Below are positions 9,201 to 10,752 of a stretch of 64,000 nucleotides of DNA, piece by piece. Position numbers and translations under genes: made by a program. Source of the stretch: Eimeria necatrix (taxonomy: Eukaryota; Apicomplexa; Conoidasida; Eucoccidiorida; Eimeriidae); NCBI RefSeq assembly GCF_000499385.1, contig NW_013651957.1, forward strand, positions 1 through 64,000, written 5' to 3'. Position 1 is the stretch's first letter, and each line of letters starts with the position of its first letter. The notes under the pieces were generated by a model. That model was not told where the DNA came from. It worked only from the letters and a program-made list of their open reading frames with translations, and searched no databases.

Positions 9201-10752
9201 AAGTTTTATTATTATTTTTTTCCTTTTCGAATCCACCTTTTAATTACTGATTTTCCTCCTGTTCATGCTCGGGCACTGCGTGCCAGACTGCAGCTTTCCT
9301 GACATTTCAAATGCACATTAGTCCTCTATAAGTGTTTCAAATATTTACAAAAGCATTTTTAATATTTATATTTCTCTATTATTGAACTCATTAGACAGAT
9401 TTTGCAAATTATAATGCAAATAAATGGGCAGTCGTGTTTGCACTGATGCATAAACCTGCGGATACACCCCGCGTTTTGCAGCACTGAAGCGTGGTCATAA
9501 ATAAGCACGGGAATATATCTATGTTCATGAAAATATATAATTATAAAATGTATTTGTTTTTATTTTTTAGCTTTTTACTATTAACAACGGTCTGTACGAG
9601 GACACTCTGAGTATAACAATGAGAAAGAAGCTGTTTTATATACTGAATATTTCAAGGATGCAGTTCTGTTACAAATGCATGCAAGTACTTATGTGTACAT
9701 GCATGCAAACCTTTTTGAAGCTTTTGCATGCAAATTTGTTCTTTTCTTTGCTGCTTTTCAGGCACCAAGGCCCCTCAGGCTGCCGGTGTAATTCACACAG
9801 ATTTTGAACGCGGGTTCATTTGTGCTGAAGTGTACAAGTACACAGACCTCGTCGAGCTCGGCAGCGAGAATGCAGTGAAAGCAGCAGGGAAATACTTGCA
9901 AAAGGGGTCAGTACTTAGGGTTTAGGGTTTAGGGTTTGGGGTTTAGAGCTGCACAAACCCCAATTGTACTTAGCTACCACATCGCACAGCAGTCTCGTGG
10001 CGTGTAGTTCATGACATTTTTTCGGTTATCTGCAGAATTATTTCTTGCAAATGTCTGCAATTTGTTTGGATTTTGTTTTTCAGTTTTTTAATTCGGTTTT
10101 CTTGCAAATGTCTGCAATTTGTTTGGATTTTGTTTTTCAGTTTTTTAATTCGGCTTTCTCGTGCCAGTTTCACAGTCTGCATTGGCAGAGACAGCACACT
10201 AGAAATGTTTTGGTTTCTGCTGCATTTGGCAATGCTTGTCCGTTTTTGATTTATTTTTTGTTTGGCCTTCCCATCACTTAACTCTTTTCTTTTAATGCAG
10301 ATCCTTTTATAATAGAAGTAGAATCTCCATTATATTCATATGTATCTAATAATTCTCAAGACAGTACTAATTGAACCAATAGAACACATTGTGTTCAGAT
10401 AAGTTACATAGTCAGGATAATCAGGTGTTCTACGTGGCACAATAATATCATCAGATTTATAATTTAAAATTTCTCTTAAATTATATGAACTTCCATAAGC
10501 TTCTATTGCCCATATTTCCATTTCTCCGAATCTTTGTCACTATTTCAAAAGGTATTATAACTAGAAAAAGTTTTAATACCTTTTGAAATAGTGACAAAGA
10601 TTCAGAGAAATGGAAATATAGAAAAGTTAATCTTGTGCTTTTATACTTTTCCAAAACCCCTTATGTTTTGCTTTTGCAGCAAGGACTACGTCGTGGAGGA
10701 CGGGGACATAATATTTTTCAAGTTTAATGTAACAAACAGCGCAAAGAAGTGA
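6273..10752 (+). CDS. OLA1: Obg-like ATPase OLA1/YchF, complete, 8 exons
   Basis: A cytosolic TRAFAC-class nucleotide hydrolase of the YchF/OLA1 family, which associates with ribosomes and prefers ATP. Exons: 6273-6322, 6650-6792, 6997-7169, 7796-8036, 8168-8409, 8626-8746, 9762-9906 and 10680-10752; all phases match and give 395 codons plus TGA, the usual family length. The start is '[17 protein letters not shown]'. The G1 loop is 'GLPNVGKST' with the family's downstream '[10 protein letters not shown]'; '[19 protein letters not shown]' is the G3/switch region, and '[10 protein letters not shown]' carries the NxxE motif in place of NKxD. The C-terminal TGS domain ends '[14 protein letters not shown]'. 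Intron 1 has a GC donor (AG/GCAAGA). Introns 2, 3 and 4 end in CTG arrays that serve as acceptors. Intron 6 contains a tRNA and intron 7 organelle-DNA fragments. Confidence 0.95.
6511..6526. repeat. Palindrome AGGTGTACGTACACCT (copy 4)
   Basis: A perfect 16-bp palindrome in intron 1 of the OLA1-like gene. Confidence 0.9.
8423..8436. repeat. Imperfect palindrome GGTGTACAGACACC (copy 5)
   Basis: It lies 13 bp inside intron 5 of the OLA1-like gene, just after the GTGCG donor. One central position departs from the GTACGTAC core. It is preceded by TTTTTCG, as copies 1 and 2 are preceded by TTCG. Confidence 0.8.
8564..8609. repeat. Interstitial telomere-like heptamers in OLA1 intron 5
   Basis: About six TAGGGTT units ending 16 bp before the intron 5 acceptor at 8624-8625. 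The heptamers are therefore inside the 3' part of the intron. Confidence 0.92.
9070..9141 (+). tRNA. tRNA-Pro (anticodon AGG)
   Basis: This 72-nt sequence folds as a standard cloverleaf. The acceptor GGCTGTT pairs with AACAGCC, the anticodon stem TCTCGC pairs with GCGAGA around the loop TTAGGGT, and the T arm is GGTTCAATTCC. The anticodon AGG reads proline CCU/CCC. It has no intron and no encoded CCA. It lies on the sense strand inside intron 6 of the OLA1-like gene, so it depends on its own internal A and B boxes for RNA polymerase III. Confidence 0.95.
9143..9146 (+). terminator. RNA polymerase III T-tract terminator
   Basis: Four T residues begin two bases after the tRNA discriminator base, the usual Pol III termination signal. 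Confidence 0.7.
9915..9945. repeat. Interstitial telomere-like heptamers in OLA1 intron 7
   Basis: Three to four TTAGGGT units begin about 8 bp after the intron 7 donor at 9907. Confidence 0.85.
10044..10157. repeat. Tandem duplication of 57 bp
   Basis: Two almost identical 57-bp copies begin CTTGCAAATGTCTGCAATTT at 10044 and 10101. They lie in intron 7 of the OLA1-like gene, and each contains TTTTTCAG, which resembles a splice acceptor. Confidence 0.92.
10290..10355 (-). pseudogene. tufA: Apicoplast tufA (EF-Tu) fragment in the nucleus
   Basis: The minus strand reads '[18 protein letters not shown]' followed by 'SALK', matching the EF-Tu region that in bacteria reads ELL...GD.TPI..GSALKAL. 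In coccidia tufA is encoded by the apicoplast. The fragment is 66 bp, AT-rich, and lies in intron 7 of the nuclear OLA1-like gene, antisense to it. It cannot be a gene on its own. Confidence 0.8.
10358..10440 (-). pseudogene. cox1: Mitochondrial cox1 fragment in the nucleus
   Basis: The minus strand reads '[16 protein letters not shown]' and then '[12 protein letters not shown]'. This is the near-universal cytochrome oxidase subunit I motif (PRR.PDYPD...N...SIGS) close to the end of the protein. The fragment of about 83 bp abuts the tufA fragment within 2 bp and the rpoB fragment directly. Confidence 0.85.
10441..10536 (-). pseudogene. rpoB: Apicoplast rpoB fragment in the nucleus
   Basis: The minus strand reads '[18 protein letters not shown]' and then '[14 protein letters not shown]'. 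This is the conserved C-terminal region of bacterial-type RNA polymerase beta (RFGEMEVWALEAYGA...KSDD). Apicoplast genomes encode rpoB. The 96-bp fragment is in the same orientation as the adjacent cox1 piece and by chance keeps the frame open into it. Confidence 0.88.
10513..10618. repeat. 44-bp inverted repeat with an 18-nt spacer
   Basis: The left arm 10513-10556 and right arm 10575-10618 are reverse complements with one mismatch (CTCCGAA against CTCTGAA). Both arms contain the rpoB-derived 'QRF.EMEI' coding stretch, so a piece of the organelle insert is present twice in opposite orientation. The intron RNA could form a long hairpin. Confidence 0.95.

Follow-up and report, generated by a model that had tools for sequence, protein, structure and literature searches.

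The last intron of an OLA1/YchF-type GTPase gene holds a 331-nt insert (10289-10619) in which short fragments of apicoplast and mitochondrial genes stand end to end and are followed by an inverted copy of one of their ends. We consider it very probable that this is a nuclear mosaic insertion, in which organelle scraps were end-joined at a nuclear break and one end was extended by fold-back synthesis. The three fragments abut between 10289 and 10538, all on the minus strand and in the order tufA, cox1, rpoB (Table 1). The window, that is the whole 64-kb stretch of DNA that we analysed, belongs to contig C428 of the assembly in which our searches were made (44.0 Mb, 1148 contigs).

Table 1. Coordinates of the host intron and of the parts of the insert, as positions in the window.
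Feature	Position	Strand	Remarks
Last intron of the OLA1/YchF-type GTPase gene, host of the insert	9907-10679	+	773 nt; donor GTCAGT, acceptor TTTTGCAG
Apicoplast tufA fragment	10289-10357	-	69 nt; tblastn matches to Cyclospora cayetanensis tufA P0204 and to a second tufA, P0213
Mitochondrial cox1 fragment	10358-10439	-	82 nt; protein and DNA matches, ends refined by hand
Apicoplast rpoB fragment	10440-10538	-	99 nt; PF04560, solved rpoB, protein and DNA matches
Stretch B, joined to the rpoB end	10539-10561		23 nt; not the native rpoB continuation
Spacer between the arms	10562-10569		8 nt, TAGAAAAA; read from the repeat alignment
Inverted copy of B and the rpoB end	10570-10619		50 nt; 48/50 to 10512-10561

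The first-pass annotation had placed the insert inside an OLA1 intron, and joining the flanking exons bore this out and identified the intron as the last one: exons 9759-9906 and 10680-10752 join in frame to the stop codon, and the two match Pfam PF06071 at 3e-29. The splice sites are normal, the flanking exons are intact and the contig is 90 kb long, which places the insert in nuclear DNA. To the left of the insert, the same intron contains a 57-bp tandem duplication (10041-10154, 98% identical), possibly another repair scar. A short run of telomere-like TTTAGGG repeats lies just within its 5′ end, at about 9915-9946.

To identify the fragments we used eight protein probes (two tufA, three rpoB and three cox1), which gave eight rows at E values up to 0.05 in the 64-kb window; all eight fell on the insert, some of the alignments running past the joints by several residues. 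The 401-nt region around it scored 60.5 bits with cox1, 38.9 and 40.4 bits with the two tufA probes and 70.5 bits with rpoB, against best scores of 21.9, 22.7 and 21.2, and 30.4 bits, respectively, among 300 dinucleotide shuffles; for each of the four probes the real score was reached by 0/300 shuffles. Protein searches of the whole genome found the insert at E values of 1.0e-10 (cox1), 1.5e-13 (rpoB) and 5.9e-4 (tufA, in a row with stops). Congruently, every block matched nuclear copies on other contigs at the DNA level. The tufA block is 86% identical to a copy on C929 over 69 nt, covering exactly 10289-10357, and 88% identical to a copy on C374 over 49 nt. The cox1 block is 90% identical to a copy on C146 over 52 nt and 78% identical to one on C499 over 83 nt (10360-10442 by blastn), and the rpoB block agrees with the copy on C305 at 25/25 nt (10514-10538). 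The three coding fragments lie within 3 bases of where they had been noted. As tufA and rpoB are apicoplast-encoded, cox1 is mitochondrion-encoded and all three find the insert, plastid and mitochondrial fragments occupy one nuclear place, in agreement with the proposal that the pieces come from two organelles.

The peptides had also been called recognisable directly, which Pfam upheld for rpoB and not for the other two. The rpoB peptide matched PF04560 at 2.3e-12, a solved bacterial rpoB at 3.9e-11, and, over 31 residues at 97%, C. cayetanensis rpoB P0247 and rpoB P0242. Pfam named no family for the tufA peptide and returned a chance row only for the cox1 peptide. Against solved structures, these short peptides alone reached 0.05 (cox1) and 0.015 (tufA), and in the cox1 search five pentatricopeptide-repeat chains outranked the cox1 rows. 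The cox1 block carries Thr where 6/6 retrieved cox1 proteins, including three named coccidian ones, have Ile (PRRIPDY). The rpoB and cox1 blocks happen to share one reading frame, a 66-residue open stretch that crosses their joint on the minus strand (10340-10538), which we ascribe to chance.

The block ends were determined by blastn and by hand reading, and they could be placed because the copy on C929 continues tufA, and that on C499 continues cox1, beyond the joints. In blastn the tufA similarity ends at 10357 and the cox1 similarity covers 10360-10442; hand reading against C305 and the E. tenella rpoB past KSDDII gave 10357/10358 and 10439/10440 as the best cuts. Measured against these proxy sequences, the tufA/cox1 and cox1/rpoB joints contain at most 2 nt of filler and overlap by at most about 3 nt, and both fit blunt joining within 0-3 nt. 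Since the references were nuclear copies and proteins in place of the species' own organelle genomes, a microhomology of 1-3 nt is possible. The description of the fragments as abutting almost base to base therefore holds, with an ambiguity of 0-3 nt at the internal joints, and it is from such joints, with that much possible overlap or gap against the proxies, that we infer end joining. The outer borders, 10288/10289 and 10619/10620, are placed to within a few bases.

Joints inside the insert that resemble any other end joint would also be expected if the pieces had already been united in an organelle or in the cytosol and then inserted once as a single chimeric molecule. For plants it is inferred that the fragments come together during integration or ahead of it (PMC6215612). 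We regard a mosaic formed ahead of capture as unlikely, given that the same combination was not seen elsewhere (four first-look candidates were scored, and matches were otherwise partial and to single genes). The fragments might instead have arrived at different times, each inserted on its own at a fragile site. Organelle DNA keeps accumulating in coccidian genomes, and the tandem duplication and telomere-like repeats of the intron would suit such a site. However, the 2 nt at most that are unassigned at the tufA/cox1 and cox1/rpoB joints leave no nuclear sequence between the blocks, and independent arrivals would need rare luck, which makes this explanation very improbable.

The right-hand part of the insert had been described as a 44-bp inverted copy of the rpoB end. 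An inverted copy is indeed present, but its length is 50 nt, and each arm consists of 27 nt of rpoB and 23 nt, the stretch B, that are not rpoB. At this place the rpoB copy on C305 continues differently, with its native sequence, and B, read in the rpoB frame, puts stops before QRF. At up to 3 mismatches, B has no copy in the 44-Mb assembly besides the two arms, and a 23-nt pattern laid across the rpoB/B joint likewise found the two arms only. Because both arms carry the same foreign joint, one of them was copied from the other after joining; two independent pieces would hardly share it. Our results thus support the earlier suggestion of fold-back synthesis at one end: the arms are inverted around a short spacer, and the non-native junction is common to both and has no further occurrence in the assembly. 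Of the two positions at which the arms differ, one changes the Gly codon of QRFGEM to Arg in arm 2 (10570-10619).

Multiple-displacement amplification typically produces inverted chimeras with short spacers, and the insert could be imagined as a chimera of assembly or whole-genome amplification, in which organelle reads were misjoined into a nuclear contig and the inverted repeat is an amplification artefact. The pieces, however, are decayed: the change of Ile to Thr in cox1, at a residue that is Ile in 6/6 proteins, and the two differences between the arms, among them that of Gly to Arg, speak against a fresh chimera of organelle reads. Moreover, the blocks lie inside a well-formed intron, and comparable decayed fragments occur on many other contigs, so we give an artefact little credence. 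Organelle sequence carried by chance within a palindromic mobile element would account for the 50-nt arms, and the left and right flanks look weakly inverted to each other by eye, but this origin is scarcely credible for a single-copy insert (among the four first-look candidates) whose arms have no other copy in 44 Mb and at whose two ends no inverted repeat of at least 12 nt is listed, where an element of this kind should be multi-copy.

None of the rivals considered explains the whole structure, and the repair of a nuclear break by end joining of organelle fragments, the origin first proposed, is the supported one. In a nuclear mosaic insertion of this kind, a double-strand break in the OLA1 intron would have been sealed by three or more short pieces of organelle DNA set end to end, two of them apicoplast and one mitochondrial. 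The right-hand end, rpoB with the 23 nt of B, would have folded back and been copied, giving a 50-nt inverted repeat with an 8-nt spacer, and the insert would afterwards have decayed as intron sequence. Break, end joining and fold-back synthesis would all belong to a single event.

To place the insert among the other organelle sequences of this genome, we searched the whole assembly. Searches with organelle-encoded cox1, tufA and rpoB proteins, among others, found no organelle contig. DNA derived from organelles proved to be widespread, however fragmentary. In the whole-genome protein search cox1 fragments appeared on 13 contigs, with no intact cox1 among them. Fragments of rpoB were found on C305, C428 (the window), C1017, C492 and C778 by the protein search and on C400 by blastn beside cox1, and those of tufA on C929, C374 and C428. 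We took the remaining rows of the rpoB search, on C667, C977 and C521, for genes of nuclear RNA polymerases, and additional matches to tufA protein, on C805, C45, C888 and C1108, for nuclear genes. Within the gene, the start points of the three tufA fragments (C428:10289, C929:8306 and C374:78804) are no more than about 10 nt apart, either by coincidence or because breaks may favour this place. C305 carries a long rpoB copy that shares 85% identity with Eimeria tenella and 73% with Cyclospora cayetanensis; an Eimeria-like source is therefore likely, and C. cayetanensis, our first candidate, was dropped. On the same contig, L025 2375-2938 marks the start of a 3-kb AT-rich stretch with rpoB pieces in opposite orientations; it adjoins 106-bp repeats, about 1.45 kb apart, that recur on many contigs. 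On C499 (L028 from about 4700) lies a long decayed nuclear cox1 copy with residues 48-480 in pieces. A NUMT cluster with cox1 pieces on C275 (10668-11291; L027 4668-5291) includes an inverted pair, 113 nt at 88%; organelle inserts with inverted copies are thus met more than once in this genome. A search of viral contigs for organelle DNA returned six distant rpoB relatives (22-38% identity) and no cox1, and in the search of genome contigs the best 80 of 591 relatives all had bacterial titles; we made use of none of these.

Two further loci may combine DNA of both organelles. On C400 a cox1 fragment (21019-21120) has an rpoB piece about 120 nt away (region 21019-21323; L029 4019-4323), found by blastn at 1e-8 in a search of less than 5 kb and at 1.4e-7 in a wider one, and the locus thus looks mixed as well. 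On C554, 470 nt of bacterial/plastid-type SSU rRNA (25063-25532), presumably apicoplast, lie 300-380 nt from cox1 (25063-26070; L141 652-1659), which makes this a probable third mixed locus. With the window included, a plastid fragment was found within the fetched 1.5 kb either side of cox1 on 3/13 cox1 contigs, a count made with tufA, rpoB and RNA families as the only plastid probes and with weak tblastn rpoB rows on C275 (E 0.006-0.03) and C397 (E 8.8e-4) discounted, these being AT-rich runs at 24-37% identity. A low-GC stretch on C397 was rejected as plastid DNA, as it consists of TA-rich and TTCATTTATT-type repeats, and another on C275, without a Pfam match, was not counted. Six-frame Pfam scans of three of the 13 cox1 contigs (C400, C30 and C275) detected cytochrome b on C30 and, below the curated cut-off, cox1 on C400, and no plastid gene; they are weak evidence of absence, since they missed the C400 rpoB piece seen by blastn. 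Mitochondrial DNA, as probed with cox1 and NUMT sequences, was found near 0/6 other plastid loci (C305, C929, C374, C1017, C492 and C778); one row linking C400 with C305 is simply the rpoB piece and was set aside.

To judge these coincidences we estimated what random placing would give. With the window left out, 0.006-0.007 coincidences are expected within 1.5 kb for 7-9 plastid sites against 12 cox1 sites, the higher figure including two putative plastid sites, on C717 and C1005, where the match to SSU rRNA is weak. The coincidence on C554 came from mutually independent searches for cox1 and for SSU rRNA. The rpoB piece on C400 came to light only through a targeted look next to cox1 and had been missed in the genome-wide rpoB search, which biases the count. 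On these sequence counts, which come from few sites, the proximity of plastid fragments to cox1 argues against random placement. It is conceivable, if rather doubtful, that mixed apicoplast-mitochondrial insertions are a regular product here, the DNA of both organelles coming together prior to capture or in the course of it, possibly owing to the proximity in which the single apicoplast and the mitochondrion lie and are broken down.

The insert offers an almost base-by-base record of how a break was probably patched, with several tiny scraps and then a fold-back copy. In Toxoplasma the capture of organelle DNA at induced breaks has already been shown, and if mixed insertions are as common as our small count suggests, the meeting place of the two organelles' DNA becomes testable there. 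Decayed nuclear copies of cox1 and of apicoplast genes can also mislead marker PCR and metagenomics of coccidia.

Mixed mitochondrial-plastid insertion is a class already described in plants: Portugez, Martin and Hazkani-Covo 2018 (PMC6215612) quantified nuclear mosaic insertions, or 'numins', in nine plants and report that they make up 2-10% of organelle insertions and carry end-joining signatures, for which blunt joints or 1-7 bp of microhomology would be the mark; mixed mitochondrial-plastid pairs were under-represented. Toxoplasma, Plasmodium, Eimeria, Apicomplexa and inverted copies are not mentioned in the main text of that paper. In Toxoplasma, the capture of organelle DNA is known to be heavy: over 9000 NUMTs are reported (PMC9490983), and non-homologous end joining has been implicated in the integration (PMC12181080). 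Our literature search found no paper combining Eimeria with NUMT/NUPT and, among the papers on Toxoplasma, Babesia, plants and other organisms that it listed, judged by titles and the starts of abstracts, no mixed insertion in a coccidian.

The insert resembles the plant numins, which have blunt or near-blunt joints, in that mitochondrial and plastid fragments abut at one nuclear place (PMC6215612); its own joints, judged against proxy sequences, may be of the same kind. Unlike them, it has its plastid pieces from the reduced apicoplast, and none of its fragments reaches 100 nt. Mosaic insertions of plastid and mitochondrial DNA, known from plants, are thereby extended to a coccidian, whose plastid is secondary and reduced. 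Namasivayam et al. are said to have described, in PNAS in 2023, a large number of short organelle-derived copies in the nuclear genome of Toxoplasma gondii; the Eimeria sequences are similar in being many short copies in a coccidian, in a different genus. Fold-back (template-switch) inverted duplications at repaired breaks have near-perfect arms, a short spacer and one end copied. Ours agrees with them in its near-perfect inverted arms and short spacer, and differs from such duplications in general in that a captured organelle fragment, together with the 23 nt of non-rpoB sequence B, makes up the end that was copied.
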